Assembly: GCA_032622095.1 (NCBI GenBank) | Contig: CP136061.1 | Location: 12,849,287 to 12,913,286 of the forward strand | Direction: 5' to 3' | From: Siphonodentalium dalli | Taxonomy: Eukaryota > Mollusca > Scaphopoda > Gadilida > Siphonodentaliidae | Length of the DNA: 64,000 bases | Part shown: positions 1,759 to 54,726 of the stretch, piece after piece | Position numbering within the stretch: the stretch's first letter is position 1 | Layout: every line of letters begins with the position of its first letter | Translations under genes and position numbers: made by a program | The notes under the pieces: generated by a model | Databases searched by the model: none | The model's input: the letters and a program-made list of their open reading frames with translations, nothing else | What the model was told of the DNA's origin: nothing

Positions 1759-1975
1759 GATTTCAATCATTTTTACTTCAAATACTTCAGCTCTCATCAG
1801 TGGTGTAAAGAAGTTTTGGTTTTATGGTTTATTGGACTCCATTTCAATCATTTGTACTTTGAATACATCAGCTCTCATCAGTGGTGTAAGGGGAAATGTT
1901 GCATGCTTTTGGACTCCATTTCAATCATTTGTACTTTGAATACTTCAGCTCTCATCAGTGGTGTAAAGAAATGTT
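1759..1975 (+). repeat. Triplicated acceptor region of exon 1
   Basis: Three copies of a segment of about 77-81 bp carry TACTTCAGCTCTCATCAG and GGTGTAA. The copies put AG at 1789-1790, 1870-1871 and 1947-1948, each with a second AG ten bases later. Only the third leads directly into the coding frame. Using the second copy in the same phase reaches TGA before the third copy. The unit therefore duplicates a 3' splice site plus the first exon bases. Confidence 0.8.
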
Positions 1976-2128
1976 GGGACAATTTGGAGCCACCTGGATG
2001 GGACTCGTCGTCAATCAGTTCCGACACGGATAGCATCGACGACATCTGGAGTATAAATAGCGAACAGAAGGCGTACTACATCACTCAATTTAAGACACTC
2101 CAACCAGATGTAGCCGGGGTTGTGATAG
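1949..2128 (+). CDS. REPS1: REPS1-like exon 1 of window: start of second EH domain
   Basis: Internal coding exon of a RalBP1-associated EH-domain protein, an endocytic adaptor linking Ral signalling to clathrin-coat proteins. The frame contains KKCWDNLEPPGW, a Ser/Asp-rich stretch, DIWSI, then EQKAYYITQFKTLQPD, which matches the opening helix of REPS1 EH domain 2. It ends in phase 1 (ATA G) before GT at 2129. Two AGs could be the acceptor (1947-1948 or 1957-1958), so the start is 1949 or 1959. I cannot choose because the upstream exon is outside the window or unseen. Both the acceptor region and the donor region are tandemly repeated (listed separately). Identity rests on continuity with the following EH exons. 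Confidence 0.82.
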
Positions 2129-2425
2129 GTATGTGATAATATATAATAAAAAAAACAACCAGATGTAGCCGGGGTTGTGATAGGTATGTGATAATATATA
2201 ATAAAAAAAACAACCAGATGTAACCGGGGTTGTGATAGGTAGGTAACAATATATAATAAAAAAACAACCAGATTTAGCCGGGGTTGTGATAGGTAGGTAA
2301 CAATATATAATAAAAAAACAACCAGATTTAGCCGGTGTTATGATAGGTAGGTAACAATATATAATAAAAAAACAACCAGATTTTGCCGGGGTTGTGTTAT
2401 GTAAGTTTCAGTATATAATAATACG
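2102..2425 (+). repeat. Six-fold repeated exon end and donor of exon 1
   Basis: A 54-55 bp unit containing the last coding bases (CCAGATGTAGCCGGGGTTG) plus the donor and an AATATATAATAAAAAA stretch is repeated. GT dinucleotides at donor-equivalent positions are at 2129, 2184, 2239, 2293, 2347 and 2401. Later copies drift from GTATGTG to GTAGGTAAC and GTAAGTTT. The first is assigned as the real donor because it alone continues the frame without added sequence. Confidence 0.88.
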
Positions 2426-2949
2426 ATATTAAAATCGAAGACATGTGGAATATAATTAGCAAACAGAAGGAATGTATGTAATTCAACTGGAGAATATTTT
2501 CTTTGAAAATACTTGCACTGACATTTCACAACACCTTGCAGGAAAAACTCGCGACTGACCTATTTCAATAGTACACGTCATGCAGCAAGTGACCGACTTT
2601 GTCAATAACATGTCGTTTGCAGCCGGCGGCAAACCTTTGATGCATGCTATTGCTACAATTTGTCTTTCCCGTGTCACGTCAACAATGAATGGACACTGCT
2701 CTCTGTGCACTGGCCCATGCATGTGGGTTGCTGAGCAATTGTTAAACTTCCCGGATTAAACTTGTCAACAGACAATGTACCCCCCCCCCCCCCCCCCCCC
2801 AGTTTCCGTTACATGAATAATTAATATAAAGCCCCTCCCATTTAACTGTCAATCTCGTGACACTGACTGAGAGATTTGACGACGTTCCTCATTGGTCAAC
2901 AGATAGTGTTTGTACTCTCTAATTAAATTAACGCAGTGCAACAATCTTT

Positions 2950-3317
2950 TTATTATGGGCTCAATGTCGGCATCTAGTTTTATGCTTCCCGGTCCGATGG
3001 GATATCACTGATAGTCGATACATCGACGAGGCTTTAATTGTGTTTTTTTTACAATACAATACAAGTTCCAACAACAAACATTTTAGATGAACATCTAGTA
3101 CACACATTTTAGCGAGTTCATGTAGGCCTACCTGTAGCCATGCAAGCACATACCCGCCTGTCGTTGTCGCTATATATCAGTGTATATACAGTCTGTATGA
3201 AGACTCAGCAATATCGCTATAATTTTAGGTAAGTAAAATCGCGATACGTATCGTATCGTGACCTCTGTATCACGATAAACATCAATACACCCTATACCCC
3301 ATATCGTTACACCCCTA
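2950..3317 (-). mobile_element. hAT-like element end with GTAACGATA terminus
   Basis: Read on the minus strand it opens TAGGGGTGTAACGATATGGG and carries ATCGCGATACGTATCGTATC. Nearly the same sequence in the opposite orientation begins at 63713. Only one end is seen, so the target-site duplication and class are not proven; the CAATACAATACAAG section is shared with the 63713 copy. Confidence 0.65.
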
Positions 3318-3566
3318 CTGGACTCCGATGGATACTGTACATGTTTTTATTATGTTAATAATGGATCTTCAAGATGTATTTTTATTTTATAACTTGTGTA
3401 ACTTTCTTCATATTCTTATTTTTTGAAAATGATAGAAGATTGCCAGTCTCTGCTGATAATCATGTGAACCAAACCTCTGATGAATAAATATTTTGACATC
3501 AAATTTAACAGATCATAAAATTAAGAGTCATACCTTTGATGTTACTGTATGGTCTTATCATTTCAG

Positions 3567-3630
3567 GCAGTGTAGCCAAAGAATTTTTTGAAAAATCCAA
3601 GCTTCCAGTGAAAGAGTTATCGTTAATATG
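3567..3630 (+). CDS. REPS1: REPS1-like exon 2: EH domain 2, central helices
   Basis: A 64-base exon between CATTTCAG and GTAAGTATT. It completes a Gly codon and then encodes SVAKEFFEKSKLPVKELSLI plus the first two bases of a Trp codon. This is the EH-domain segment carrying the conserved K-S-x-L-P and E-L-S-x-I-W motifs. In the EH family that Trp lines the pocket that binds Asn-Pro-Phe ligands. Phase 1 in and phase 2 out agree with exons 1 and 3. The match to REPS1 is very close and I see no defect. Confidence 0.9.
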
Positions 3631-3639
3631 GTAAGTATT

Positions 3640-3862
3640 CGAACAAATGTTATACATCATGCGTCATTCTTCAAAAAATGTTATACATCAGGCGTTGTTC
3701 TTCAACAAATGTTATACATCATGCATCGTTCTTCAACAAATGTTATACATCATGCATCGTTCTTCAACAAATGTTATACATCATGTGTCATTCTTCAAAT
3801 TTTTTTTTTAAATCATATGTTGTTCTTCAACAATTGTTATACATCAATCATCGTTTTTCACA
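3640..3862 (+). repeat. 31-bp tandem repeat just inside intron 2
   Basis: About seven degenerate copies of a 31-bp unit (AACAAATGTTATACATCATG then CATCGTTCTTC) begin within ten bases of the exon 2 donor. The short ORFs here are translations of the repeat and are not considered genes. Confidence 0.85.
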
Positions 3863-3893
3863 ACTAATGCTGACAGGCTCAAAATAGCTTCCT

Positions 3894-5244: not shown

Positions 5245-5436
5245 CAGCATCGTACTATAGACATTCATAGCTTCCTCAGCATCGTACTATAGACATTCAT
5301 AGCTTCCTCAGCATCGTACTATAGACATTCATAGCTTCCTCAGCATCGTACTATAGACATTCATAGCTTCCTCAGCATCGTACTATAGACATTCATAGCT
5401 TCCTCAGCATCGTACTATAGACATTCATAGCTTCCT
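5245..5436 (+). repeat. 32-bp x6 tandem repeat before exon 3 acceptor
   Basis: Six essentially identical 32-bp units beginning CAGCATCGTACTATAGACAT end 23 bases before exon 3. The region just downstream (TTTTCACTTTTCTCTTTTCAG) supplies the polypyrimidine tract. The array occupies the zone where a branch point would normally sit, and each unit contains an AG. Confidence 0.92.
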
Positions 5437-5459
5437 CATTTTCACTTTTCTCTTTTCAG

Positions 5460-5602
5460 GAATTTATCTGATTTGAATCGAGATGGTGCTCTCTCTCTTG
5501 ATGAATTCTGTATAGCAATGCATTTAGTTGTGGCGCGTTTAAATCATGTTGAATTACCCAATCATCTACCGCCATCATTACATCCATACTCCGCCTTCAC
5601 AG
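5460..5602 (+). CDS. REPS1: REPS1-like exon 3: EH domain 2 with EF-hand loop
   Basis: A 143-base exon bounded by TTTTCAG and GTAAGTG. It completes the Trp codon started in exon 2, then encodes NLSDLNRDGALSLDEF, CIAMHLVVARLNH and a PNHLPPSLHPYSAFT tail. DLNRDGALSLDE is a complete EF-hand loop, with Asp1, Asn3, Asp5 and Glu12 present. The following helix and the P-x-x-L-P-P-S-L ending are typical of REPS EH domain 2. The phase (2 in, 1 out) is consistent on both sides. The exon end and donor are duplicated 53 bp downstream. Confidence 0.92.
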
Positions 5603-5660
5603 GTAAGTGTTACATCATCTACCGCCATCATTACATCCATACTCAGCTTTTACAGGTAAT
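5553..5660 (+). repeat. Duplicated exon 3 end with second donor
   Basis: The 53-bp segment CATCATCTACCGCCATCATT through CACAG|GT is repeated, giving donors at 5603 (GTAAGT) and 5656 (GTAATT). Use of the second donor would add 53 bases. The added frame is open (GKCYIIYRHHYIHTQLLQ), but it shifts phase into exon 4. The first donor is the consensus one and keeps the frame. Confidence 0.88.
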
Positions 5661-5685
5661 TGTTACATCATCTTAAAAGCCAAGC

Positions 5686-7190: not shown

Positions 7191-7258
7191 CACGCAACTA
7201 TTTAAAATTTGTTATTTAAAGAGATAATCCATCTTTAATGTCTGTTTCCTATCAACTA

Positions 7259-8081: not shown

Positions 8082-9716
8082 TTAACCCTTTCAGTGCCAA
8101 GTCTGATTTTTGTATCAACCCATATTTCCTTGATCATTGTTATACCCCCACAACAAAGTTGTGGGGGGGGTATACTGGAATCAGCTTGTCTGTCCGTCCG
8201 TGGACACAAATCTGTCCGGAGTTTTTCTCAGTAGTTTTTTGATCAATTTCCGTGAAACTTGGCACAGACATCAACCACCATGGGAACCTGTTCACCTGTG
8301 ATTGGAACCTGTTCACCTGCGATTATGACGTCTGTGGACTTTTTTTGGTGGAGTTATCCCCCCCTTTTTTGTCCGATCTTTTATTCCTACATTTTTAGGT
8401 CAATTTAAAAAAAACTTGGCACAGATATTTAGTACCATGGGAAGCTGTGCACCTGCGATTATGACGTCTGTACGACATTTTGTGGTGGAGTTATCCCCCT
8501 TTTTTTACTTAGAAATTGTTTTGCAATATGCATAATTTTGTCTGAGCTTTTATTCCTACATTTTTGGGTCAATTTTTTTAAAACTTGGCACTGATATTTA
8601 GTACCATGGGAACCTGTGCACCTGCGATTATGATGTTTGTCCGACTTTTTTGTGTGGAGTTATTCCCCTTTTTTGACTTATTTTCGCAACATGCATAATT
8701 TGTCCGAGCTTTTATTCCTACATTTTTCTGGCAATAGGTTTTAGATTAGGGTTAGGGTTGTGCACCTGCAATGGGAACTGTTATTTTATTATTTTAACTA
8801 AATGTTTACTGACATGTGAAACATCTTAGTATTTTAAAAACTTGGGGGGTATCCTTAGTCCCCATTGGGACAGTCACACCTGATGTTTGCAACCTACCAG
8901 CTGATCGGTGTCAGAATTTGGGTCAATCAGGTGTTGCTTCGTTGCATTATTTGATTTGTTATTGGTAAAAACAGTACATAATTGAGCAACTTTGAGCATT
9001 AATAAGGCACATATAATAAAAGAATACCTATTACAGTTTATGTTTGAAAACCTGAAACATCTCATTCGCATCTGGAAAGAAATATCAAATTTTCACTAGC
9101 GGTTTGCTGGTGCTCATCAACATTTTTTATTTCTTTCCAGACACTAATAAGATATTTTGGGAATCGAACAAAAACTAAATGTATTTTAGACTGGCTGTCT
9201 AGAGGCAGTTTTGAATTTAAAATTACATTATTTATAAGTTTTAAGGGCAAAAATAGTTGAAAAATATGGAAGAATGTTTTTTGAGTTGCGGAAAGAAAGA
9301 AAAATTTGTGTCCCCTTGATCACCCACTTACACGTGATTGTAAAATTTTACCCCCCCCCATCACCCCCCCCCCCCCAGCCACAAAACACAGGAAAAACAT
9401 CTGGTGTTGAACTTATAATATTTGAACTTATAATATTTGAACTTATTATATTTGACCTAAAACTTTTTTTTGTAAAGATAGATTTTCAATAAAAAAAAAA
9501 CACACCACAATACTGTAATGTTGCAAATTTAATAAAACTTTCTGTCCCAGTTTATGGGATTTTTCTGTTTATTATTTGACAAGTTCAGGGAAGATATACA
9601 CCAACTTTATCCACTTTACGTAAGGAAATTAACTATTGTCTAAATATATTACAAGTTTCTGATTATGTAGATCAATGGGTTGATACAAAAATCGGACTTG
9701 GCACTGAAAGGGTTAA
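8082..9716. mobile_element. TTAA-flanked element with ~43-bp inverted ends
   Basis: TTAACCCTTTCAGTGCCAAG, then TTTTTGTATCAACCCAT, at the left is mirrored by ATGGGTTGATACAAAAATCG, CACTGAAAGGGTTAA at the right. TTAA plus CCCTTT again suggests a piggyBac-like non-autonomous element. It holds a nested dispersed element (8142-8882) and C-rich simple sequence near 9350. Confidence 0.83.
8142..8882 (+). mobile_element. TTATACCCCC dispersed element, copy 1
   Basis: Begins TTATACCCCCACAACAAAGT and GGGGGTATACTGGAATCAGC, has CCGTCCGTGGACACAAATCT and internal ~180-bp repeats of ACTTGGCAC...GTACCATGGGAA, and ends GGGGGGTATCCTTAGTCCCC. The same family is at 14478-15095. No ORF; unclassified non-autonomous element. 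Confidence 0.8.
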
Positions 9717-9863: not shown

Positions 9864-9952
9864 ACGAGCCGTATGAACCATTTGCTGCTGACCTTGAACC
9901 TGGAAGTACGATGAAGGTGCTCAAGCCGCCAGTGACTCCTCCCGGGAATCAG
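9864..9952 (+). CDS. REPS1: REPS1-like exon 4: linker after EH domain 2
   Basis: An 89-base exon between TTTTTACAG and GTGAGATT. It completes an Asp codon and encodes EPYEPFAADLEPGS followed by TMKVLKPPVTPPGNQ, ending in phase 0. This is the acidic and proline-containing linker directly after the EH domain. Sequence conservation is low here, so support comes mainly from exact phase agreement with exons 3 and 5, good splice sites and an uninterrupted frame. The donor borders the largest of the short-unit arrays in the gene. Confidence 0.85.
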
Positions 9953-11597
9953 GTGAGATTACAGTTACTCCCCGTTGGTGTGTATGAGATTACAGTTACT
10001 TCCCTTTGGTGTATATGAGATTACAGTTACTTCCCTTTGGTGTATATTAGATTACAGTTACTTCCCTTTGGTGTATATGAGATTACAGTTACTTCCCTTT
10101 GGTGTGTATGAGATTACAGTTACCCCCTTTGGTGTGTATGAGATTACAGTTACTTCCCTTTGGTGTGTATAAGATTACAGTTACTTCCCTTTGGTGTATA
10201 TGAGATTACAGTTACTTCCCTTTGGTGTGTATGAGATTACAGTTACTCCCCTTTGGTGTATATGAGATTACAGTTACTCCCCTTGGTGTATATGAGATTA
10301 CAGTTGGTGTGTATGCGATTACAGTTACTTCCCTTTGGTGTGTATGAGATTACAGTTACTTCCCTTTGGTGTGTATGAGATTACAGTTACTTCCCTTTGG
10401 TGTGTATGAGATTACAGTTACTTCCCTTTGGTGTGTATGAGATTACAGTTACTTCCCTTTGGTGTGTATGAGATTACAGTTACTTCCCTTTGGTGTATAT
10501 GAGATTACAGTTACTCCCCTTTGGTGTATATGAGATTACAGTTACTCCCCTTTGGTGTATATGAGATTACAGTTACTCCCCTTTGGTGTATATGAGATTA
10601 CAGTTACTTCCCTTTGGTGTATATGAGATTACAGTTACTCCCCTTTGGTGTATATGAGATTACAGTTACTTCCCTTTGGTGTATATGAGATTACAGTTAC
10701 TTCCCTTTGGTGTATATGAGATTACAGTTACTCCCCTTTGGTGTATATGAGATTACAGTTACTTCCCTTTGGTGTGTATGAGATTACAGTTACTTCCCTT
10801 TGGTGTGTATGAGATTACAGTTACTTCCCTTTGGTGTGTATGAGATTACAGTTACTTCCATTTGGTGTGTATGAGATTACAGTTACTTCCCTTTGGTGTG
10901 TATGAGATTACAGTTACTTCCCTTTGGTGTATATGAGATTACAGTTACTTCCCTTTGGTGTATATGAGATTACAGTTACTTCCCTTTGGTGTGTATGAGA
11001 TTACAGTTACTTCCATTTGGTGTGTATGAGATTACAGTTACTTCACTTTGGTGTGTATGAGATTATAGTTACTCCCCTTTGGTGTGTATGAGATTATAGT
11101 TACTCCCCTTTGGTGTATATGAGATTACAGTTACTTCCCTTTGGTGTATATGAGATTACAGTTACTTCCCTTTGGTGTGTATGATATTACAGTTACTTCC
11201 CTTTGGTGTATATGAGATTACAGTTACTTCCCTTTGGTGTGTATGGGATTACAGTTACTTCCCTTTGGTGTGTATGAGATTACAGTTACTTCCCTTTGGT
11301 GTGTATGAGATTGCAGTTACTTCCCTTTGGTGTATATGAGATTACAGTTACTTCCCTTTGGTGTATATGAGATTACAGTTACTTCCCTTTGGTGTGTATG
11401 AGATTAGTTACTTCCCTTTGGTGTGTATGAGATTACAGTTACTTCCCTTTGGTGTGTATGAGATTACAGTTACTCCCCTTGGTGTGTATGAGATTACAGT
11501 TACTCCCCTTTGGTGTATATGAGATTACAGTTACTTCCCTTTGGTGTGTATGAGATTACAGTTACTTCCCTTTGGTGTGTATGAGATTACAGTTACT
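9953..11597 (+). repeat. ~30-bp minisatellite starting at exon 4 donor
   Basis: About 54 copies of a roughly 30-bp unit (GAGATTACAGTTACTTCCCT then TTGGTGTGTAT). The first copy is the intron start itself: the donor GTGAGATTACAG becomes GTATGAGATTACAG in later units. Units vary between GTGTAT and GTATAT and between TTCCC and TCCCC. Every unit carries a GT-rich donor-like segment and a TTACAG acceptor-like segment. The small ORFs in it are repeat translations. Confidence 0.93.
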
Positions 11598-12089
11598 TAA
11601 GAAATGAATGTAGTGGGAGTGTATGTTAGTTGGGGGATACGCTGTAGTTGTTGGGGGTACATTGTGTAAACCGCAAATGTACCCCAATGACCACAGCGCC
11701 GTATCCCCAATACATTCATTTCTTATATTTATATAGCTTTTTGATGATTTATTTCTATAAAAAAGCTGAGTGTATTCTTGTTTATATTAGAAAATGGCCG
11801 ATAATTTGAGACCAGCCCATGCAGCACATGAGTCAGCCCGATATAAGATTTCCAAACTTTTAGCTATGATAACGTGATCGATATAAATGACTGGCTTCAG
11901 AAGCAATTCGGCTGAACTTTGAAAAAACTTTTAGTGATTAGATCAGATACGGTCAACAATTTGTATCTTTCTGTTCGTGATACGCTCTATAGATCTCTGC
12001 ATTATTGGGATATAAACCAGATGGCCCAATTGGATGTTGACCAATCACCAAACAGGATTTAGTTTATTACGGACAGGCTATGTAAATAT
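11598..12089. mobile_element. Insertion inside the 30-bp minisatellite
   Basis: About 490 bp of unrelated sequence interrupts the array between GTTACTT and TTCCTTTGG. It opens with an imperfect hairpin of about 120 bp whose arms are AAGAAATGAATGTA (from 11599) and its complement near 11705. The rest is unrecognised. The class is uncertain because no target-site duplication can be separated from the repeat units. Confidence 0.5.
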
Positions 12090-12376
12090 TTTCCTTTGGT
12101 GTGGATGAGATTACAGTTACTCCCCTTTGTGTATATGAGATTACAGTTACTTCCCTTTGGTGTATATGAGATTACAGTTACTCCCCTTTGGTGTATATGA
12201 GATTACAGTTACTCCCCTTTGGTGTATATGAGATTACAGTTACTCCCCTTTGTGTATATGAGATTACAGTTACTTCCCTTTGGTGTATATGAGATTACAG
12301 TTACTTCCCTTTGGTGTATATGAGATTACAGTTACTCCCCTTTGGTGTATATGAGATTACAGTTTCTTCCCTTGGT
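12090..12376 (+). repeat. Second block of the 30-bp minisatellite
   Basis: About nine further units of the array that starts at 9953, in the same orientation, ending at TTCTTCCCTTGGTATAG. The two blocks are one array split by the 11598-12089 insertion. Confidence 0.9.
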
Positions 12377-13985: not shown

Positions 13986-14477
13986 AATTATAATATACAA
14001 TTTTATTTATATTTTTATTTATTTAAATAAATTAAAATACTGGCAACATACATACTAAAATAACAAAAATATTAATATATTGAGGAACAACAACAACAAT
14101 CATTATTTATACTGGAGCGTACAGCTTGGTAGCTTCTTTCAACAATCTGCTGGTAGTAATTCTCATTGACGATTAGTTTGTCCATAAGAACATCACCTTC
14201 CCGGTCCTCTCGTCGTTTTCCTCTCCTGTCGTCTACACATCTCCCTTTCTGAAACCTGCTTCATATCGCCACCGAAATTATAAATGAAATTACAAAAATG
14301 TCAACTTATAATCCCATAGAAATAATACTGGAACATTTAGGTTCAATGCAGCCAATAACCTCCTGAAAAGCCGATTGATATATCCCCATGAAGATGAGGT
14401 AGACATTGTGGAATTAATATTGAAAAAATTATGCCAGCCAGCGACAAATCAGTTGAATATATACCAGTTGTATTTTT

Positions 14478-16871: not shown

Positions 16872-17073
16872 GCGAAATATCTGACATTTTGCCTTGGTGG
16901 AAAGTTCTAAAAAGATGAGTTCTCCCACTCACAGAAACATTCAGAGTGAAGCAAGCAGGAGGACTCTATCTTTATCTAAGATCGTCTGATGTTTCATGAC
17001 TGATCCGTTCTAAAAATAGCACATAAAAATGTCGCAATTGATTGTATGTATAATATATCCGTAAAATTTGAAA

Positions 17074-17199
17074 TGTTTTTTTCCCAATCTTTTAGCAGTG
17101 GAACCCTGGATTCACAGACTCTCCACCCGTTACTAATGTTTTTTTCCCACTCTTTTAGCAGTGGAACCCTGGATTCACAGACTCACCACCCGTTACTTC
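17074..17199 (+). repeat. 63-bp duplication of exon 5 acceptor
   Basis: Two copies of a 63-bp unit: a TGTTTTTTTCCCA tract, CTTTTAG, and the first 42 exon bases. The AGs are at 17094-17095 and 17157-17158. If the upstream one is used, the frame runs QWNPGFTDSPPVTN and then reads into the pyrimidine tract, ending at the TAG of the second acceptor. The downstream acceptor is therefore the coding one. Confidence 0.9.
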
Positions 17200-18425: not shown

Positions 18426-18458
18426 CTGCTATGAGAGACCTAGATACAATCTCAAATC

Positions 18459-41301: not shown

Positions 41302-44300
41302 TTAAAGGCCCACTTAATTTTCGAATGCCCGGATATCATTATACAAAACATATTCCATATTATATTCCATTTGGAAGAGGAACCAAAAATATAAGAACAG
41401 CTGTGGTCTAGGAGTGTCCACAAAGTGATATAGATTCTCAGGTTCATTCCAAGACTTCCCCCGTTGTCAATGTAGAATGCATCAGAAATCAAACTAAGAG
41501 ATACTGATAGAGTTATTTCCCTTTCATTGAGAATAATAAACTGTACAGTACAGTCTGGATCAAAATTAAGCTCAGAACACACATCGGCACCTCAACAAAA
41601 ATAACATGTTCCCAGTTTATTCGACCAGATCAGTTGATACTACAATGTTTTGGGGCTTCCTCTTTCACATGATATATAATATGGAATATGTTGTATATAA
41701 TGTGATCTGGGGGGGGGGGTGTATATAATATGGAATATGTTGTATATAATGTGATCTGGGGGGGTGTATATAATATGGAATATGTTGTATATAAAGTGAT
41801 CTGGGGGGTGTATATAATATGGAATATGTTGTATATAAAGTGATCTGGGGGGTGTATATAATATGGAATATTTTGTATATAATGTGATCTGGGGGGGGGT
41901 GTATATAATATGGAATATGTTGTATATAATGTGATCTGGGGAGGGGGGGTGTATATAATATGGAATATGTTGTATATAAAGTGATCTGAGGGGTGTATAT
42001 AATATGGAGTATGTTGTATATAATGTGATCTGGGGGGGGTGTATATAATATGGAATATGTTGTATATAATGTGATCTGGGGGGGGGGGGGTGGGTGTATA
42101 TAATGTGGAATATGTTGTATATAATGTGATCTGGGGGGTGTATATAATATGGAATATGTTGTATATAATGTGATCTGGGGGGTGTATATAATATGGAATA
42201 TGTTGTATATAATGTGATCTGGGGGGTGTATATAATATGGAATATGTTGTATATAAAGTGATCTGGGGGGGTGTATATAATATGGAATATGTTGTATATA
42301 ATGTGATCTGGGGGTGTATATAATATGGAATATGTTGTATATAATGTGATCTGGGGGTGTATATAATATGGAATATGTTGTATATAAAGTGATCTGGGGG
42401 GGTGTATATAATATGGAATATGTTGTATATAAAGTGATCTGGGTGGTGTATATAATATGGAATATGTTGTATATAAAGTGATCTGGGGGTGGGTGTATAT
42501 AATATGGAATATGTTGTATATAATGTGATCTGGGGGGGGGTGTATATAATATGGAATATGTTGTATATAATGTGATCTGGGGGGTGTATATAATATGGAA
42601 TATGTTGTATATAAAGTGATCTGGGGGGGTGTATATAATATGGAATATGTTGTATATAAAGTGATCTGGGGGATGTATATAATATGGAATATGTTGTATA
42701 TAATGTGATCTGGGGGGGGGTGTATATAATATGGAATATGTTGTATATAATGTGATCTGGGGGGTGTATATAATATGGAATATGTTGTATATAATGTGAT
42801 CTGGGGGGGGGGTGTATATAATATGGAGTATGTTGTATATAATGTGATCTGGGGGGGGTGTATATAATATGGAGTATGTTGTATATAATGTGATCTGGGG
42901 GGTGTATATAATATGGAGTATGTTGTATATAATGTGATCTGGGGGGTGTATATAATATGGAATATGTTGTATATAATGTGATCTGGGGGGGGGGGTGTAT
43001 ATAATATGGAGTATGTTGTATATAATGTGATCTGGGGGGGGTGTATATAATATTGAGTATGTTGTATATAATGTGATCTGGGGGGGGGTGTATATAATAT
43101 GGAATATGTTGTATATAATGTGATCTGGGGGGTGTATATAATATGGAGTATGTTGTATATAATGTGATCTGGGGGGGTGTATATAATATGGAATATGTTG
43201 TATATAATGTGATCTGGGGGGGGGGGGGGTGGGTGTATATAATATGGAATATGTTGTATATAATGTGATCTGGGGGTGTATATAATATGGAATATGTTGT
43301 ATATAATGTGATCTGGGGGGGGGGGGGTGTATATAATATGGAGTATGTTGTATATAATGTGATCTGGGGGGGGGTGTATATAATATGGAATATGTTGTAT
43401 ATAATGTGATCTGGGGGGGGGTGTATATAATATGGAGTATGTTGTATATAATGTGATCTGGGGGGGGGGGGTGTATATAATATGGAGTTTGTTGTATATA
43501 ATGTGATCTGGGGGGGTGTATATAATATGGAATATGTTGTATATGTGATCTGGGGGGGTATATAATATGGAGTATGTTGTATATAATGTGATCTGGGGGG
43601 GTGTATATAATATGGAGTATGTTGTATATAATGTGATCTGGGGGGTGTATATAATATGGAATATGTTGTATATGTGATCTGGGGGGGGGTGTATATAATA
43701 TGGAGTATGTTGTATATAATGTGATCTGGGGGGGTGTATATAATATGGAATATGTTGTATATAATGTGATCTGGGGGTGGGTGTATATAATATGGAATAT
43801 GTTGTATATAATGTGATCTGGGGGGGGGTGTATATAATATGGAATATGTTGTATATAATGCGATCTGGGGGGGTGTATATAATATGGAGTATGTTGTATA
43901 TAATGTGATCTGGGGGGGGGGGGGTGTATATAATATGGAATATGTTGTATATAATGTGATCTGGGGGGGTGTATATAATATGGAGTATGTTGTATATAAT
44001 GTGATCTGGGGGGGTGTATATAATATGGAATATGTTGTATATAATGTGATCTGGGGGGGGGGGTGTATATAATATGGAATATGTTGTATATAATGTGATC
44101 TGGGGGGGTGTATATAATATGGAATATGTTGTATATAATGTGATCTGGGGGGGGGGGTGGGTGTATATAATATGGAATATGTTGTATATAATGTGATCTG
44201 GGGGGTGTATATAATATGGAATATGTTGTATATAATGTGATCTGGGGGGTGTATATAATATGGAATATGTTGTATATAATGTGATCTGGGGGGTGTATAT

Positions 44301-46672
44301 AATATGGAATATGTTGTATATAAAGTGATCTGGGGGGGGGGTGTATATAATATGGAATATGTTGTATATAATGTGATCTGGGGGTGTATATAATATGGAA
44401 TATGTTGTATATAATGTGATCTGGGGGTGTATATAATATGGAATATGTTGTATATAAAGTGATCTGGGGGGTGTATATAATATGGAATATGTTGTATATA
44501 AAGTGATCTGGGTGGTGTATATAATATGGAATATGTTGTATATAAAGTGATCTGGGGGATGTATATAATATGGAATATGTTGTATATAATGTGATCTGGG
44601 GGGTGTATATAATATGGAATATGTTGTATATAATGTGATCTGGGGGGTGTATATAATATGGAATATGTTGTATATAAAGTGATCTGGGGGGGTGTATATA
44701 ATATGGAATATGTTGTATATAAAGTGATCTGGGGGATGTATATAATATGGAATATGTTGTATATAATGTGATCTGGGGGGGGTGTATATAATATGGAATA
44801 TGTTGTATATAATGTGATCTGGGGGGTGTATATAATATGGAATATGTTGTATATAATGTGATCTGGGGGGGGGGTGTATATAATATGGAGTATGTTGTAT
44901 ATAATGTGATCTGGGGGGGGTGTATATACTATGGAGTATGTTGTATATAATGTGATCTGGGGGGTGTATATAATATGGAGTATGTTGTATATAATGTGAT
45001 CTGGGGGGTGTATATAATATGGAATATGTTGTATATAATGTGATCTGGGGGGGGGGGGGGGGTGTATATAATATGGAGTATGTTGTATATAATGTGATCT
45101 GGGGGGGTGTATATAATATTGAGTATGTTGTATATAATGTGATCTGGGGGGGGGGGTGTATATAATATGGAATATGTTGTATATAATGTGATCTGGGGGG
45201 GTGTATATAATATGGAGTATGTTGTATATAATGTGATCTGGGGGGGGGGGTGTATATAATATGGAATATGTTGTATATAATGTGATCTTGGGGGGGTGGG
45301 TGTATATAATATGGAATATGTTGTATATAATGTGATCTGGGGGTGTATATAATATGGAATATGTTGTATATAATGTGATCTGGGGGGGGTGTATATAATA
45401 TGGAGTATGTTGTATATAATGTGATCTGGGGGGGGTGTATATAATATGGAATATGTTGTATATAATGTGATCTGGGGGGGTGTATATAATATGGAGTATG
45501 TTGTATATAATGTGATCGGGGGGGGGGGGGGTGTATATAATATGGAGTATGTTGTATATAATGTGATCTGGGGGGGTGTATATAATATGGAATATGTTGT
45601 ATATGTGATCTGGGGGGGGGGGTATATAATATGGAGTATGTTGTATATAATGTGATCTGGGGGGGTGTATATAATATGGAGTATGTTGTATATAATGTGA
45701 TCTGGGGGGTGTATATAATATGGAATATGTTGTATATGTGATCTGGGGGGGGGGGGTGTATATAATATGGAGTATGTTGTATATAATGTGATCTGGGGGG
45801 TGTATATAATATGGAATATGTTGTATATAATGTGATCTGGGGGTGGGTGTATATAATATGGAATATGTTGTATATAATGTGATCTGGGGGGGGGTGTATA
45901 TAATATGGAATATGTTGTATATAATGCGATCTGGGGGGGGGTGTATATAATATGGAGTATGTTGTATATAATGTGATCTGGGGGGGGGGGTGTATATAAT
46001 ATGGAATATGTTGTATATAATGTGATCTGGGGGGGGTGTATATAATATATGGAGTATGTTGTATATAATGTGATCTGGGGGGGTGTATATAATATGGAAT
46101 ATGTTGTATATAATGTGATCTGGGGGGGGTGTATATAATATGGAATATGTTGTATATAATGTGATCTGGGGGGGTGTATATAATATGGAGTATGTTGTAT
46201 ATAATGTGATCTGGGGGGGGTGTATATAATATGGAATATGTTGTATATAATGTGATCTGGGGGGGGGGGGGTGTATATAATATGGAGTATGTTGTATATA
46301 ATGTGATCTGGGGGGGGGGGTGTATATAATATGGAATATGTTGTATATAATGTGATCTGGGGGGGGGGGGGGGTGTATATAATATGGAATATGTTGTATA
46401 TAATGCGATCTGGGGGGGGGGTGTATATAATATGGAGTATGTTGTATATAATGTGATCTGGGGGGGGGTGTATATAATATGGAGTATGTTGTATATAATG
46501 TGATCTGGGGGGGGTGTATATAATATGGAGTATGTTGTATATAATGTGATCTGGGGGGGTGTATATAATATGGAGTATGTTGTATATAATGTGATCTGGG
46601 GGGGGTGTATATAATATGGAATATGTTGTATATAATGCGATCGGGTGATTTGAAAATTAATTGGTCCTTTAA
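41302..46672. mobile_element. TTAA-flanked element family N, copy 2, expanded
   Basis: The left end TTAAAGGCCCACTTAATTTT and right end AAAATTAATTGGTCCTTTAA, both including TTAA, are inverted repeats. 41302-41660 matches 31015-31419 inverted. A normal copy has one subterminal CATATTCCATATTATAT block at each end; here the right-hand block has been amplified into the minisatellite at 41665-46642. Confidence 0.8.
41665..46642. repeat. ~5-kb minisatellite, ~108 G-run units of ~46 bp
   Basis: Each unit reads GTATATAATATGGAATATGT, TGTATATAATGTGATCT, then a G run of 3-15 bases and T. Variants are GGAGTATG for GGAATATG, AAAGTGATC for AATGTGATC, GGGTGGG and rare GCGATC. On the minus strand the unit has no stop in any frame, so the changing G-run length rotates the frame without closing it. 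This explains the 1707-residue open frame (HYIQHIPYYIHPP, ITLYTTYSILYTPP and HIIYNIFHIIYTPP) without any gene. Confidence 0.95.
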
Positions 46673-47119: not shown

Positions 47120-47246
47120 TTGTATGACTATCTCGTATCACTATTTGGTATGACTTGCATTCAGAACACTATCTTGTATGACTATTTCGTATGACTATCT
47201 CGTATGACTATCTTGTATGACTATCTCGTATGTCTATCATATATCT
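47120..47246 (+). repeat. 13-bp tandem repeat before exon 8 acceptor
   Basis: Degenerate copies of a 13-bp unit (CTCGTATGACTAT) lead into the exon 8 polypyrimidine region ATCTCTCCTGTACAG, ending about 22 bases before the acceptor. Confidence 0.82.
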
Positions 47247-47268: not shown

Positions 47269-47439
47269 TTCCTGCAGTGTTACCGGGACAGTTATTACCT
47301 CCAGCGACGTCTAGTCAGGGCGAGACGACGGAGCGAGTGAACGCCGCGGTGCTGCCTGTGGGGGACGTCCCACCTGCTCCTCCTCCACGCCCGCCACATT
47401 CTCGAAGCATGTCTATGGACTGCCAGAAACAACAATCAG
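47269..47439 (+). CDS. REPS1: REPS1-like exon 8: proline-rich block
   Basis: A 171-base exon between CCTGTACAG and GTCACTAC, phase 1-1 and so a multiple of three. It encodes VPAVLPGQLLPPATSSQGE, TTERVNAAVLPVGD and VPPAPPPRPPHSRSMSMD. The proline run followed by HSRS-x-S-x-D is the REPS1 signature region, whose proline-rich segments are known in the family to bind SH3 domains. GC content is clearly higher than the surrounding intron. The donor GTCACT is weak. Confidence 0.9.
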
Positions 47440-48004: not shown

Positions 48005-48526
48005 TACTGTAAAAAATTTACAGAACAAAAATGATTTTTCCATTCCAGACTCCTTGTGTTGAATGAACAATTTATTCTATCGAATCTTAAATGCTATGCA
48101 TGTGAAATGGTCGATATCTAAGTCAATTTCTGCATATGTTTGCTTATACACACTTTCTACTTCTTGAGGAATTGCTTGCTGAAAGTTTTGCCAAATGAAA
48201 AAAATATTTATACACCAATCTAAATGTATTATGTTATTGGTCTGTGAATTATTTTCTCAAATGTCTCTAAAATATCTCAGGCATTAAAGACATATTATAG
48301 ACTTATTTGGGTGCATGAAACTGATAGTTATTCAGGCGCTATCATGGATGAATGTAATATTGCCGAAAATCTCAAGCATATCGACCGTACCACTCCATAG
48401 AAAACATTGTCCGAACTACATTCTATTGGCGATATTTACTTTCTCAAATTTGGGATGCATCTATCAGATAAACTATAGAAAACGTTTTCGCCATCTGCAT
48501 TTAATTAATATGTAATAATGACGGTA

Positions 48527-51103
48527 CAGCTATGCTCTCATTAAGCGACCTGTTTAACGAGGTTATGGGCCGGTACTTACCGCGGTGATACCACCAAAAT
48601 ACCACAGTAATCATTCTGTACCGCGGCGGAGGTGCGGTTGACCTGCGGTACTGGTACGGTATTTTTACTGTTTGTTACTGCAGGTCACCGCGTTATTGGT
48701 GTTCGTTACCGCCGTACACCGCAGAGAGAGAACACGTCGGAAACAAGGACTCACATCGTGGGTAAATGATTATGAATAACTTTTGTATTGAATGAATACC
48801 TGTAAGCTGCACATAATTATGTACGTAATGAATATAAATGAATAATAATGCAATCGGAGTACATATGGGCAAAGTACATGAACATGTCGGGTTTACATGT
48901 AACATATTACAAATTTACACGTACATCACATTTAATCTCGTGTCATGTATATATATATGAAATATTTTTACCAGAAAATCAGATTATTATAATATATACG
49001 ACGTCGGTGGTTTTTGAACTCAGCTATAGTTGCTTACGCAAAGCATCGTGGAGTAATATTTTTGTTGTTGGCATCTATCTTACATATCGTCAAACGATTT
49101 ACGCACCCGATTCCTATATAGGTGTCCACTAATGCGGAATTTTTTGTTTTTTTTTGTGTTTCCGAAATCTAAATTTCTTATAAAATGGGTGAAGTAAATC
49201 CTCCATTTATCTGAATTTGGTCGAAACCAGCGGGGACTGTGCATTAGTAATAGTCCGATTTTAGTCTTAGTGGCAAGGGCGGCGTTCATTGCAGAAATAT
49301 TCATATTCATTCAAATATATAGTTTGTTCAAATGCCAAACATAATCGGCGCGTAAATAGTATATTGTTGTCAAGACGTACGATTGTACGCATGCGTGAAA
49401 TTTGCGCCTCAAGATTTCTTGTCGGTGGGAATAAAATGTATAACTAAGAAAGCGTGGCACATGTCATGCAGCAAAGTTGTTATCATCACCAATTTGCACG
49501 ACAAAAGACACACGCAAAACACCAAACATTGAAAGACACAACGTTGTCAAATCAGTCTTTGATTTTGTTACGTGAACATTCATTGAGCTCACGAGTGTGT
49601 GTCGGGCGGCATTGTTTGATGTGAAATTGCAACTTTTGGCGAGGGCGTGCACTTGTAGTTCTCGGTGGGTCGCAGTATAAATTTTATCACATATTCCTAT
49701 CTAATCGTGATTCGGAAGAAAAACATTCATGGTGTTGGAAAGTTGACCTCTAAATATGTTTGTTTGGTTATATACAGAGGTTAACATTGTAACATAATTA
49801 TTTTAAGTGATCGAATTGGGTGTGTTTTAGTCCTTATTAGTTTATTCCCGATATGGTAGCAATAAAGAGCGTTTGTCTCACTTTTGTGCGACAAAGATTT
49901 ATAAATAGCTATTACGTGCACAACATTTTAAAGATCGAATGAGCCTTGTCTGCTTAAAGCCACTTGGCGGTTTGCTCCCCAAAATACACGTATTATTCGC
50001 AATACCAAAATAGATCGATAAATATCTGAACTACCTTCTACGAGCATTATGTAAGCTAAACGGACGCAATGGAGTAATGAAAATACAAGTGTCCAAAACA
50101 CAAAACAGCCATAGCCATTCGGGCGTCACGTGTGTAGTTTTACTGTTAGCACCATCAACAAAACACAAATATTTATTTCACCCATTGAGGCCAGTTATAA
50201 AAAGACATGACGACATCTGAAGTGTCCCATGTCCTATATTAACAGAGTCTATACCAGCTGGAGTATGACGTAATCAGTGACACATGCTTTTGCACAGAAT
50301 GTATTTGTTTTCCCTGGATATACGGCAGTTCCACTTTGTGTCTTTTATTGCTAGGACAATAATTCCCTTTATACGAACAAATGGTGTTTGTGATTTGAAG
50401 TTAATGAATGTCAATAAAGTTAACAACTATATTTATTCTGGGAACTATTTAAATATTATCGTTTAATCATTCAATTTTGGGATCACGTACATCTGAAGAT
50501 TGATATAGACTATATATACGGGATTTACCGAGCTGTCTAAAATGGCCGAAATCATTTGTTCCCTTCCCGATAACCCACACTTCTCATAAAATAGTGTCAT
50601 TCACTGGGTTTTTGGGCAATAAAACAAGACTAGAAGTGTTATTATAATATTCACATTTAATTTAAAAATTACTTTCTCAAAGTAACTTATACTTACCTTT
50701 ACTTAATCTGGAAGCCGGGTATATTTCCCGATACTCGGCTTTCATCTATTTCAATATTTTAATAATACACTTCACGGCAGACAATCATGGACGGAGATCG
50801 TGAGAACGGCCGTCCTATTTTGGAAGATTGACGGTCAGACATCGAATCCCGTCATTAACCTCGTTAGAAAAACGCTACTGCGTAGCGGTAATGTCACCGC
50901 GTTTGTGCGGTGCATCACCGCGTGCCACCGCGGTACCAACATTCATTACCGCTGGTAGTGCGGTGATATCACGAATGTCGCGGTGGTACCGCGGTACGCG
51001 AGTGGTAGTGCAACCGCGAATCGGCGGTATGTCGCGGTATTGCACCGCAGTATTAACGCATGTACACCTCGTTAAAAAAGGTCGCTTAATTTGAGCAGTG
51101 CTG
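48527..51103. mobile_element. 2.58-kb TA-flanked transposon, copy 1
   Basis: Inverted ends CAGCTATGCTCTCATTAAGC and (complement of the right end) CAGCACTGCTCAAATTAAGC, followed by GACC and TTTAACGAGGT on both sides; TA at 48525-48526 and 51104-51105. Subterminal regions are GC-rich with many TACCGCGGT-type motifs, unlike the AT-rich 2-kb core. No transposase-sized ORF. TA target and CAG termini resemble Tc1/mariner-group elements (inference). Confidence 0.85.
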
Positions 51104-51326
51104 TATGTGTGGATAATTTGTATTTTCTTTAGCAAGATTATTCTCCATTTCTATTTGATCACCCTACCAGAGAGTTTCACATCACCGTACCACTCCATAG
51201 AAAACATTGTCCGAACTACATTCTATTGGCGATATTTACTTTCTCAAATTTGGGATGCATCTATCAGATAAACTATAGAAAACGTTTTCGCCATCTGCAT
51301 TTAATTAATATGTAATAATGACGGTA

Positions 51327-53852
51327 CAGCTATGCTCTCATTAAGCGACCTGTTTAACGAGGTTATGGGCCGGTACTTACCGCGGTGATACCACCAAAAT
51401 ACCACAGTAATCATTCTGTACCGCGGCGGAGGTGCGGTTGACCTGCGGTACTGGTACGGTATTTTTACTGTTTGTTACTGCAGGTCACCGCGTTATTGGT
51501 GTTCGTTACCGCCGTACACCGCAGAGAGAGAACACGTCGGAAACAAGGACTCACATCGTGGGTAAATGATTATGAATAACTTTTGTATTGAATGAATACC
51601 TGTAAGCTGCACATAATTATGTACGTAATGAATATAAATGAATAATAATGCAATCGGAGTACATATGGGCAAAGTACATGAACATGTCGGGTTTACATGT
51701 AACATATTACAAATTTACACGTACATCACATTTAATCTCGTGTCATGTATATATATATGAAATATTTTTACCAGAAAATCAGATTATTATAATATATACG
51801 ACGTCGGTGGTTTTTGAACTCAGCTATAGTTGCTTACGCAAAGCATCGTGGAGTAATATTTTTGTTGTTGGCATCTATCTTACATATCGTCAAACGATTT
51901 ACGCACCCGATTCCTATATAGGTGTCCACTAATGCGGAATTTTTTGTTTTTTTTTGTGTTTCCGAAATCTAAATTTCTTATAAAATGGGTGAAGTAAATC
52001 CTCCATTTATCTGAATTTGGTCGAAACCAGCGGGGACTGTGCATTAGTAATAGTCCGATTTTAGTCTTAGTGGCAAGGGCGGCGTTCATTGCAGAAATAT
52101 TCATATTCATTCAAATATATAGTTTGTTCAAATGCCAAACATAATCGGCGCGTAAATAGTATATTGTTGTCAAGACGTACGATTGTACGCATGCGTGAAA
52201 TTTGCGCCTCAAGATTTCTTGTCGGTGGGAATAAAATGTATAACTAAGAAAGCGTGGCACATGTCATGCAGCAAAGTTGTTATCATCACCAATTTGCACG
52301 ACAAAAGACACACGCAAAACACCAAACATTGAAAGACACAACGTTGTCAAATCAGTCTTTGATTTTGTTACGTGAACATTCATTGAGCTCACGAGTGTGT
52401 GTCGGGCGGCATTGTTTGATGTGAAATTGCAACTTTTGGCGAGGGCGTGCACTTGTAGTTCTCGGTGGGTCGCAGTATAAATTTTATCACATATTCCTAT
52501 CTAATCGTGATTCGGAAGAAAAACATTCATGGTGTTGGAAAGTTGACCTCTAAATATGTTTGTTTGGTTATATACAGAGGTTAACATTGTAACATAATTA
52601 TTTTAAGTGATCGAATTGGGTGTGTTTTAGTCCTTATTAGTTTATTCCCGATATGGTAGCAATAAAGAGCGTTTGTCTCACTTTTGTGCGACAAAGATTT
52701 ATAAATAGCTATTACGTGCACAACATTTTAAAGATCGAATGAGCCTTGTCTGCTTAAAGCCACTTGGCGGTTTGCTCCCCAAAATACACGTATTATTCGC
52801 AATACCAAAATAGATCGATAAATATCTGAACTACCTTCTACGAGCATTATGTAAGCTAAACGGACGCAATGGAGTAATGAAAATACAAGTGTCCAAAACA
52901 CAAAACAGCCATAGCCATTCGGGCGTCACGTGTGTAGTTTTACTGTTAGCACCATCAACAAAACACAAATATTTATTTCACCCATTGAGGCCAGTTATAA
53001 AAAGACATGACGACATCTGAAGTGTCCCATGTCCTATATTAACAGAGTCTATACCAGCTGGAGTATGACGTAATCAGTGACACATGCTTTTGCACAGAAT
53101 GTATTTGTTTTCCCTGGATATACGGCAGTTCCACTTTGTGTCTTTTATTGCTAGGACAATAATTCCCTTTATACGAACAAATGGTGTTTGTGATTTGAAG
53201 TTAATGAATGTCAATAAAGTTAACAACTATATTTATTCTGGGAACTATTTAAATATTATCGTTTAATCATTCAATTTTGGGATCACGTACATCTGAAGAT
53301 TGATATAGACTATATATACGGGATTTACCGAGCTGTCTAAAATGGCCGAAATCATTTGTTCCCTTCCCGATAACCCACACTTCTCATAAAATAGTGTCAT
53401 TCACTGGGTTTTTGGGCAATAAAACAAGACTAGAAGTGTTATTATAATATTCACATTTAATTTAAAAATTACTTTCTCAAAGTAACTTATACTTACCTTT
53501 ACTTAATCTGGAAGCCGGGTATATTTCCCGATACTCGGCTTTCATCTATTTCAATATTTTAATAATACACTTCACGGCAGACAATCATGGACGGAGATCG
53601 TGAGAACGGCCGTCCTATTTTGGAAGATTGACGGTCAGACATCGAATCCCGTCATTAACCTCGTTAGAAAAACGCTACTGCGTAGCGGTAATGTCACCGC
53701 GTTTGTGCGGTGCATCACCGCGTGCCACCGCGGTACCAACATTCATTACCGCTGGTAGTGCAACCGCGAATCGTGGTATGTCGCGGTATTGCACCGCAGT
53801 ATTAACGCATGTACACCTCGTTAAAAAAGGTCGCTTAATTTGAGCAGTGCTG
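51327..53852. mobile_element. TA-flanked transposon, copy 2 with 50-bp deletion
   Basis: Identical in ends and core to 48527-51103. In the right subterminal region it lacks 50 bp lying between two TGGTAGTG direct repeats (copy 1, about 50953-51010), leaving one repeat, and differs again at AATCGTGGTATG versus AATCGGCGGTATG. Confidence 0.88.
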
Positions 53853-53937
53853 TATGTGTGGATAATTTGTATTTTCTTTAGCAAGATTATTCTCCATTTC
53901 TATTTGATCACCCTACCAGAGAGTTTCACATCACTTT

Positions 53938-54182
53938 TACCCTTTCATGACTGGAGCTTCCTGAAATATTACGAAAACCCTGTGTCAATGCATTCTTTTA
54001 TATATGCCAGTCTCCCATAGGGAACCTCGCATATATAAGAGAATGCATTGTCCTAACAATATTTACCTTGATCTTATAAGCCAGGGCATTCTCTTATATA
54101 ATGGGAGACTCCCCATGTGAGAATGCACTGGCACAGAATCTTTAATGCTGCACTAGTGCAGCTCCCGTCATGAAAGGGTTAT
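53938..54182. mobile_element. Family A hairpin MITE
   Basis: TACCCTTTCATGACTGGAGC ... GTCAATGCATTCTTTTATAT and complementary arms; ends AGCTCCCGTCATGAAAGGGT. Confidence 0.82.
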
Positions 54183-54203
54183 TACTGTTTTGCTCTTGGA
54201 ATC

Positions 54204-54312
54204 AAGCCTTGAAATAGTGTGCCTGTCATTTGCAGAATGAGGTCCCCAGAGGGTGAATTTAGTGATGCTAACCCGCTATGCGTGGGTAGCATCACTAAAT
54301 TCATTCTAATTA
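54204..54312. mobile_element. Family B hairpin, truncated right arm
   Basis: AAGCCTTGAAATAGTGTGCC, GAATGAGGTCCCCAGAGGGT, loop CCCGCTATGCGTGGG, then ATCACTAAATTCATTCTAAT where the right arm ends just before the exon 9 acceptor repeats. Confidence 0.8.
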
Positions 54313-54325
54313 TAAATAAATAGTA

Positions 54326-54479
54326 AGGAACTAACATATTATGTTGCATTTATAGGTAACTCAGCTTTGACGACGAGGGAACTAACATATTATGTTGTAT
54401 TTATAGGTAACTCAGCTTTGACGACGAGGGAACTAACTTATTATGTTGTATTTATAGGTAACTCAGCTTTGACGACGAG
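54326..54479 (+). repeat. 51-bp x3 repeat of exon 9 acceptor
   Basis: Three 51-bp units each contain GAACTAAC(A/T)TATTATG, TTTATAG and the first exon bases GTAACTCAGCTTTGACGACG. Acceptor AGs lie at 54354-54355, 54405-54406 and 54456-54457. The unit is 17 codons long and has no stop in the coding frame, so any acceptor can be used without frameshift; each upstream site adds RELTYYVVFIGNSALTT. Confidence 0.93.
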
Positions 54480-54537
54480 TGGTGGCCACACCCTACTCAA
54501 CCCTCCTGCAGTCCCTCCCAGGGTACAACAAAAAGAG
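54458..54537 (+). CDS. REPS1: REPS1-like exon 9: NPPAVPPR block
   Basis: An 80-base exon ending at the GTGAGTAT donor. It completes a Gly codon, then encodes NSALTTSGGHTLLNPPAVPP and RVQQKE, ending in phase 0. The (H/N)PPAVPPR block is a recognised REPS1 proline-rich motif following the HSRS block of exon 8. The start given uses the third of three equivalent acceptors. Starts at 54356 or 54407 are equally open and would add 34 or 17 residues; the YYVVFI-containing additions look intron-derived. Remaining exons, including the C-terminal coiled coil, are downstream of the window. Confidence 0.87.
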
Positions 54538-54726
54538 GTGAGTATATTCATATCCCTCCCAGGGTACAACAAAAAGAGGTGAGTATATTCATATCCCTCC
54601 CAGGGTACAACAAAAAGAGGTGAGTATATTCATATCCCTCCCAGGGTACAACAAAAAGAGGTGAGTATATTCATATCCCTCCCAGGGTACAACAAAAAGA
54701 GGTTAGTATATTCATATCCCTCCCAG
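54512..54726 (+). repeat. 41-bp x5 repeat of exon 9 end and donor
   Basis: Five copies of a 41-bp unit (CCCTCCCAGGGTACAACAAA, AAGAG, GTGAGTATATTCATAT) give donors at 54538, 54579, 54620, 54661 and 54702. The last is GTTAGTAT. Since 41 is not a multiple of three, any donor but the first changes phase, and the second unit contains an in-frame TGA at 54580-54582. Confidence 0.93.

Follow-up and report, generated by a model that had tools for sequence, protein, structure and literature searches.

Introduction

Duplications that span exon–intron boundaries, and introns whose ends are rich in repeats, are already known, each as a phenomenon in its own right. Among duplicated genes in humans, De Grassi and Ciccarelli (2009; PMC2812944) described internal tandem repeats at exon–intron boundaries, with minisatellite-size units averaging 30 bp; in their account, which takes in 27 manually inspected intron modifications in segmental-duplication paralogs, such repeats are credited with giving rise to alternative splicing and to new introns. 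A second related system is intron gain by tandem duplication (Rogers; potato RdRp, PMC4974935), where the duplicated segments, as that source describes them, copy AG|GT or an intron–exon edge. Minisatellites have also been tied to spliced regions in C. elegans, in which CeRep25B, reported as one family present in several genes, lies near alternative exons (PMC4039745), and intronic minisatellites are reported from earthworm metallothionein genes (PMC12783039). Genome-wide work in plants and algae found tandem repeats to be denser toward intron ends, with location expressed as relative intron position and with abundant motifs that are often short. A contrasting picture is reported for Daphnia pulex, where introns are poorer than other regions in repeats whose unit exceeds 8 bp (PMC3152781). 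Judging from literature listings, we found nothing that bears directly on molluscan minisatellites or on those close to splice sites.

Here we analyze a 64-kb stretch of contig CP136061.1 from the mollusc Siphonodentalium dalli (the whole of which we refer to as the window), in which a REPS1-like gene carries tandem arrays beside each of the nine exons predicted there. As in the human paralogs, the units are of minisatellite size and sit at exon–intron boundaries, and in six arrays the repeated unit runs across the boundary and the splice site is duplicated with it; the comparison is, however, with nine exons of one gene, whose structure is predicted. As in intron gain by tandem duplication, AGGT lies inside the duplicated segment at the donors of exons 1, 3 and 9 and at the acceptor of exon 9, but here it is existing introns that lengthen at their ends, with copies numbering up to 53. 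Gao and Lynch (2009) and Zhuo (2007) are reportedly cited alongside intron gain by tandem duplication. In contrast to the single family CeRep25B, twelve unrelated units occur in one gene, and while the density toward intron ends resembles that in plants and algae, the host here is an animal and the repeats are longer minisatellites that often enter the exon.

Results

The nine predicted exons of the REPS1-like gene, which is of molluscan type, join in frame within the 64-kb window to give a composite of 354 codons with no stops (coordinates are window positions on the + strand throughout). Exon 1 (1949, or 1959, to 2128), which encodes the N-terminal half of an EH domain and ends in phase 1, matched molluscan REPS1 strongly in tblastn from position 1951. 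Strong tblastn matches were obtained for exon 2 (3567-3630) and for exon 3 (5460-5602), which encodes the C-terminal half of the domain, together with a modest match for exon 4 (9864-9952; best E=5e-4) and strong matches, with E down to 1.4e-8, for exon 7 (35905-36081), a counterpart of which is absent from Haliotis rubra isoform P0045 in the protein alignment. The models of exon 5 (17159-17251; weak tblastn, E=0.37), exon 6 (19102-19186), exon 8 (47269-47439; no tblastn match) and exon 9 (54458-54537; weak tblastn, E=0.20-0.42) are predictions that combine splice signals, phase and the way in which the composite aligns to 11 molluscan REPS1 proteins. Splice-signal scoring returned no exon between exons 5 and 7, and exon 6 was located by a motif search.

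The EH domain is of REPS type (1fi6 REPS1, E=5.9e-34; runner-up 1iq3, 7.6e-31), and the gene product matched the Pfam EH family at 2.2e-17. The composite is 52-59% identical to the 11 molluscan REPS1 proteins (alignment A1) and 50% identical to a Haliotis cracherodii protein with 97% of the query covered; among the best 120 of 277 protein matches, none was close, the top identity being 63%, over 56% of the query. With nine proteins as queries, tblastn matched neither the N-terminal EH domain nor the C-terminal coiled coil of REPS1 anywhere in the window (E<=0.01), and the gene may extend beyond the window at both ends. With regard to other coding content in the window, seven ORFs yielded no Pfam families; an Rfam scan of the window at gathering thresholds gave no matches, and no relatives of protein P0019 were found in viral contigs.

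We called arrays with TRF and measured the gap from each array to the exon boundary. Twelve of the 18 splice boundaries, comprising five donors and seven acceptors, have a tandem array of their own, and every one of the nine exons has one within 80 bp. The original prediction had placed an array within ~200 bp of every exon and had listed the boundaries affected; TRF reproduced the list, including the six cases in which the unit carries coding bases together with the splice site.

These six arrays straddle their boundaries. At the exon 1 acceptor, copies lying 81 and 77 bp apart (1760-1977; 2.8 copies) reach into the first exonic bases, and at the donor of the same exon a unit of 54-55 bp is present six times (2101-2421), with 28 coding bases per unit and AG|GT in five of the six copies. 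Directly past this donor array, positions 2434-2470 hold a decayed copy that matches the exon 1 interior (2035-2071) at 86%. The exon 3 donor array (5561-5673) comprises 2.1 copies of 53 bp with 42 coding bases per unit, and the exon 5 acceptor array (17072-17197) two copies of 63 bp, 39 bp of each unit being coding; the upstream copy in this array reaches an in-frame stop. Exon 9 is straddled on both sides, by three copies of 51 bp at the acceptor (54327-54479) and by 6.1 copies of 41 bp at the donor (54512-54760), where each unit has 26 coding bases, copies 1-4 are identical and the splice site is gone from copy 6. AG|GT is absent from the units at the exon 1 and exon 5 acceptors.

A seventh array, consisting of 53.5 copies of 31 bp at the exon 4 donor (9954-11598), begins at intron base 2, and its unit reappears at 12093-12373. 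The others lie at the exon 2 donor (3642-3860; 31 bp, seven copies, gap 12 bp) and at the acceptors of exon 3 (5245-5438; 32 bp, 6.1 copies that are 100% identical, gap 22 bp), exon 6 (18456-19022; 73 bp, 7.8 copies, gap 80 bp), exon 7 (35621-35872; 21 bp, 12.6 copies, gap 33 bp) and exon 8 (47122-47240; 13 bp, 8.8 copies, gap 29 bp). The units had been described beforehand as unrelated sequences of 13 to 81 bp that record independent events. Consistent with this, the 12 exon-edge units gave no cross hits among each other, so that the arrays look independent. When the two terminal units of each array were compared, the exon-distal one had diverged further in seven arrays, less far in two and to the same degree in three, a polarity that is suggestive only (sign test p=0.18, Wilcoxon p=0.055).

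Array crowding at exons is confirmed as statistically real in this gene. The window holds 46 arrays in 64 kb, which cover 22% of it, and 46% of the window lies within 200 bp of an array. Using a threshold of 80 bp, which was chosen post hoc with the gaps already known, 12 of the 46 arrays are near an exon compared to 2.2 expected; none of 4000 random relocations matched this count, and none of 1719 circular shifts reached it for arrays with a TRF score >=40 (p=0.0006 at score 30). In a strict set (score >=100, period <=100), 12 of 22 arrays were near an exon, as against a mean of 1.2 and a maximum of 6 over 1719 circular shifts. That random placement would rarely reach every exon, as originally argued, is borne out by the finding of an array within 200 bp at 9/9 exons when 4.7 would be expected (circular-shift p=0.005). 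Straddling arrays likewise numbered six compared to 1.1 expected. Coverage of the boundary base itself (0 bp) was not significantly raised in circular shifts (6/18 versus 4.0 expected, p=0.27), with p=0.19, 0.07 and 0.03 at margins of 10, 25 and 50 bp; because two of the arrays are long (5.0 and 1.6 kb) and raise coverage, the array-wise tests were added. Nor are arrays equally dense deep in introns, at least within the window: the fraction of sequence in arrays was 0.51, 0.59 and 0.53 at 1-50, 51-100 and 101-200 bp from an exon, 0.19 at 201-400 bp, and 0.13, 0.23, 0.14 and 0.27 in successive bins past 400 bp. A TRF-free detector agreed, giving 0.47, 0.57 and 0.37 within 200 bp and 0.13-0.18 further out.

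Discussion

The explanation that we tentatively prefer, while placing it a little short of an even chance, is that the arrays are independent minisatellites, arising through local tandem duplications that are frequent near exons and then pass through a filter of selection. Each array would have started when a local segment of 13-81 bp, no more than ~80 bp from an exon edge, was duplicated in tandem. Purifying selection may then preserve one functional exon-adjacent copy, and duplicate splice sites beyond that copy would be spliced out with the intron or yield faulty transcripts, with growth of arrays into exons being limited because coding sequence would break. That selection keeps repeats harmless to splicing had been offered in the original prediction, and in one respect it fits: among 13 displaced duplicate splice sites (those other than the exon 1 acceptor copies), 10 led to a stop, one shifted the frame and two remained in frame and open. 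A selection filter alone, however, predicts fewer arrays that cross splice sites, whereas the six observed exceed expectation.

The preference for exon edges could have two sources, which one window cannot separate. Exon-flanking intron DNA may escape overwriting by dispersed repeats and so retain its duplications, or duplications may arise there more often. Dispersed repeats, as detected by in-window self-BLAST (a lower bound), occupy 1% of the sequence at 1-50 bp from exons, 13% at 51-100 bp and 12-41% at greater distances. In DNA with no in-window dispersed match, the masking of which is likewise a lower bound, array coverage was 0.51-0.68 within 200 bp and 0.18-0.34 beyond 400 bp; since the excess persists in DNA free of dispersed repeats, shelter cannot account for everything. 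Moreover, a broad sheltered zone by itself would not predict the peak of nearest array edges at 0-50 bp, where six overlap the exon and five lie at 1-50 bp (5.6/kb), as against 1.1/kb at 51-200 bp, none at 201-400 bp and 0.4-0.8/kb beyond.

A broader form of this idea, which we regard as possible but doubtful, is that the ~100 bases flanking exons on each side are a genome-wide hot zone of minisatellite birth in this lineage, in which case splice sites would routinely occur as arrays of variable copy number, with exons acting as master copies under selection that seed introns outward and with redundant splice sites and in-frame extensions, such as a 17-residue cassette at exon 9, as steadily supplied products. 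If the pattern proves genome-wide, exon edges here would constitute a natural laboratory for the duplication, shift and new use of splice sites, and the pattern would point to a mutational or preservation bias linked to exon–intron structure, a question that bears on intron evolution.

Among the alternatives to local duplication plus selection, the one that fares best, although we consider it unlikely, is mutagenesis linked to splicing or transcription, in which R-loops, U1-bound RNA or junction repair raise tandem duplication at exon ends. The crowding of nearest edges at the junction supports this part of the original prediction, as do the excess of straddling arrays, the involvement of both donors and acceptors and the start of the exon 4 array at intron base 2. 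Anchoring to the junction did not emerge, however, as the splice site falls anywhere in the six straddling units (exonic share 0.25-0.79), a distribution compatible with a uniform one in a test of low power (KS p=0.71, n=6), and five arrays sit 12-80 bp off the boundary.

It is less probable still that the locus is an extreme draw from a minisatellite-rich genome, singled out because arrays chanced to fall by exons. The array content of the window and the selection of this single gene by a reader are in keeping with such a draw, but neither the relocations nor the circular shifts (TRF score >=40) reproduced the observed count. We think it improbable that the arrays are functional, being retained because they aid splicing, for example by providing redundant or alternative splice sites. 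All three acceptors in the exon 9 acceptor array are in frame and open (adding 0, 17 and 34 residues), and the C. elegans minisatellite is reported to be over-represented near alternative splicing (PMC4039745); against this, 11 of the 13 displaced sites shift the frame or hit a stop, some site copies have decayed (exon 1 donor copy 6, exon 9 donor copies 5-6), and no sequence is common to the units. Finally, extra copies arising from read or consensus errors, an explanation with which the identity of all six copies at the exon 3 acceptor would agree, are very improbable given that copies bear shared and private substitutions of their own, that copy numbers in the window are as high as 53 and 108, and that we know of nothing that ties assembly error to exon edges.

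For gene prediction, loci of this kind carry a warning, in that exon models can go wrong where splice sites are duplicated or the ends of exons copied. Intron GC content was flat with distance at 0.35-0.38, and that of exons was 0.49.

The REPS1-like gene and its exon models

The REPS1-like gene is represented by nine predicted exons on the plus strand of the window: exon 1 at 1949 (or 1959)-2128, exon 2 at 3567-3630, exon 3 at 5460-5602, exon 4 at 9864-9952, exon 5 at 17159-17251, exon 6 at 19102-19186, exon 7 at 35905-36081, exon 8 at 47269-47439 and exon 9 at 54458-54537. Using tblastn with 18 REPS-family proteins, we obtained strong matches to exons 1-3, a modest match to exon 4 and weak matches to exons 5 (E=0.37) and 9 (E=0.20-0.42). 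The product of exons 1-3 is an EH domain matching the solved REPS1 EH domain 1fi6 (E=5.9e-34). Nine molluscan proteins used as tblastn queries matched exon 7 (E down to 1.4e-8), both boundaries of which are supported because the aligned Haliotis rubra isoform P0045 lacks the corresponding stretch. Exon 6 was located via a conserved motif and then read directly in the sequence, and exon 8 had no tblastn match with REPS-family or molluscan queries. Spliced together, the nine exons give 354 codons free of stops, and the composite product aligned with 11 molluscan REPS1 proteins at 52-59% identity with no evident exon gap. Its top protein match was from Haliotis cracherodii (50% identity, 97% of the query), with no close match among the best 120 of 277. 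With the nine molluscan proteins, no match to the N-terminal EH domain or C-terminal coiled coil was found within the window at E<=0.01.

Tandem arrays lie at or near every exon

Running TRF on the window yielded 61 rows, which merged to 46 minisatellite-type arrays covering 14.4 kb. The original prediction placed an array within about 200 bp of every recognised exon; all nine exons have one within 80 bp. Of the 18 splice boundaries, 12 are accompanied by an array (both boundaries of exons 1, 3 and 9, the donors of exons 2 and 4, and the acceptors of exons 5-8), leaving the acceptors of exons 2 and 4 and the donors of exons 5-8 without one. Six arrays straddle a boundary (the acceptor and donor of exon 1, exon 3 donor, exon 5 acceptor, and the acceptor and donor of exon 9), so that the unit includes coding bases and the splice site, in agreement with the predicted minimum of six. 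The exon 4 donor array begins at intron base 2, and the other five lie 12-80 bp from their boundary. Comparing the 12 units with each other gave no cross hits at E<=0.01; lacking detectable mutual similarity, they look like separate events, as had been proposed.

Repeated sequence also lies just outside these arrays. About 500 bp past the end of the exon 4 donor array, its 31-bp unit reappears at 12093-12373. Directly after the exon 1 donor array, at 2434-2470, part of the inside of exon 1 is present as a decayed copy, which suggests a trace of an older, larger exon duplication.

Arrays near exons exceed chance expectation

Within the scope of one gene and one window, three tests show an excess of arrays near exons and a fourth does not, with p-values that are optimistic because the window was pre-selected by a reader who had noticed the pattern. 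When the 46 arrays were relocated at random 4000 times, with covering a whole exon or sitting inside one forbidden, 2.2 arrays were expected within 80 bp of an exon (a threshold taken from the largest observed gap) versus 12 observed, a count reached in 0 of 4000 relocations; the claim that randomly placed arrays would seldom reach every exon is supported. Straddling arrays numbered six against 1.1 expected, with p between 0.00025 and 0.002 when the relocation was repeated. Circular shifts, which preserve how arrays and exons cluster, gave a mean of 2.2 arrays and a maximum of 8 (1719 shifts; TRF score 50, period 10 or more); at TRF score 30, arrays gave p=0.0006 and exons p=0.006. In the shift test at the originally predicted 200 bp, p was 0.005 for exons hit. 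Base coverage of boundary positions was not significant (6 of 18 versus 4.0 expected, p=0.27). Exon 1 was started at 1949 in the boundary-coverage and 200-bp shift tests and the non-TRF detector, and at 1959 in the relocation, distance-coverage, dispersed-repeat and score-threshold circular-shift analyses; its acceptor lies inside an array either way.

The third test showed that arrays in the window are not equally dense deep in introns: they cover 51-59% of the DNA up to 200 bp from an exon, then 19% (201-400 bp) and 13-27% (farther out), or 45-53%, 14% and 4-19%, respectively, without the two arrays longer than 1 kb. A non-TRF repeat detector gave an agreeing profile. Coverage stays high out to 200 bp because a single array extends over a hundred to several hundred bases. 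By nearest edge, six arrays overlap an exon, five lie at 1-50 bp (5.6 per kb), three at 51-200 bp (1.1 per kb) and none at 201-400 bp, with 0.4-0.8 per kb beyond; array births are therefore concentrated at exon edges or no more than about 80 bp from them.

Shelter, mutational bias and selection

Shelter from dispersed repeats is a plausible reason for this proximity: in-window dispersed copies, a lower bound since masking relied on self-BLAST of the window, make up 1% of the 50 bp nearest an exon versus 12-41% of DNA beyond 200 bp. Where such copies are absent, arrays still cover a fraction of 0.51-0.68 up to 200 bp from an exon versus 0.18-0.34 beyond 400 bp, and the measured shelter therefore does not account for all of the excess. 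A real mutational bias near exons may be involved; intron GC did not change with distance from the exon.

In the straddling arrays, between 0.25 and 0.79 of the unit is exonic (KS versus uniform p=0.71, with little power at n=6), so nothing suggests that breakpoints are fixed exactly by the splice junction. Among 13 displaced duplicate splice sites tested, which leave out the exon 1 acceptor copies, 10 run into a stop (five exon 1 donors, one exon 3 donor, one exon 5 acceptor and three exon 9 donors), and an exon 9 donor at +41 puts the sequence out of frame but meets no stop up to the end of exon 9. The two others, exon 9 acceptors at +51 and +102, are in frame and open, adding 17 or 34 residues. 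With 11 of 13 sites stopping or shifting the frame, the exon-adjacent copy alone would in most tested cases be able to serve the reading frame. This is the outcome to be expected if duplications arise at random and purifying selection acts on them. Distal units diverged more than exon-proximal ones in seven arrays and less in two, and the two were equal in three (sign p=0.18, Wilcoxon p=0.055). This hints at copies being derived from the one at the exon and decaying farther out. In the exon 9 acceptor array (54327-54479) all three copies are in frame and open, so that three protein forms, in steps of 17 residues, could be made.

Known systems and other repeats in the window

In human duplicated genes, splicing is reported to be altered by tandem repeats that sit at exon-intron boundaries (PMC2812944). 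Intron gain is commonly modelled as the tandem duplication of a segment that bears AGGT or spans an exon edge (PMC4974935, PMC2809761). Across 31 species of plants and algae, tandem repeat density rises toward the ends of introns (PMC3887541), while repeats with units above 8 bp are reported to be sparser in introns than elsewhere in Daphnia pulex (PMC3152781). Individual duplications in the REPS1-like gene therefore belong to known kinds; among the papers listed by our literature searches, none was seen to describe a gene with an array at every exon of a comparable stretch.

Elsewhere in the window, a 44-bp unit is repeated about 108 times at 41673-46642, where the plus strand is almost without C (GC skew about 0.87), which gives rise to very long spurious minus-strand ORFs and places runs of G in the sense strand of the intron following exon 7 (intron 7). 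The intron preceding exon 9 contains a 2.8-kb tandem duplication (48384-51185 and 51184-53934, 98.1% identical), and a dispersed element is present in two copies (8136-8881 and 14472-15087) that are 76-83% identical.
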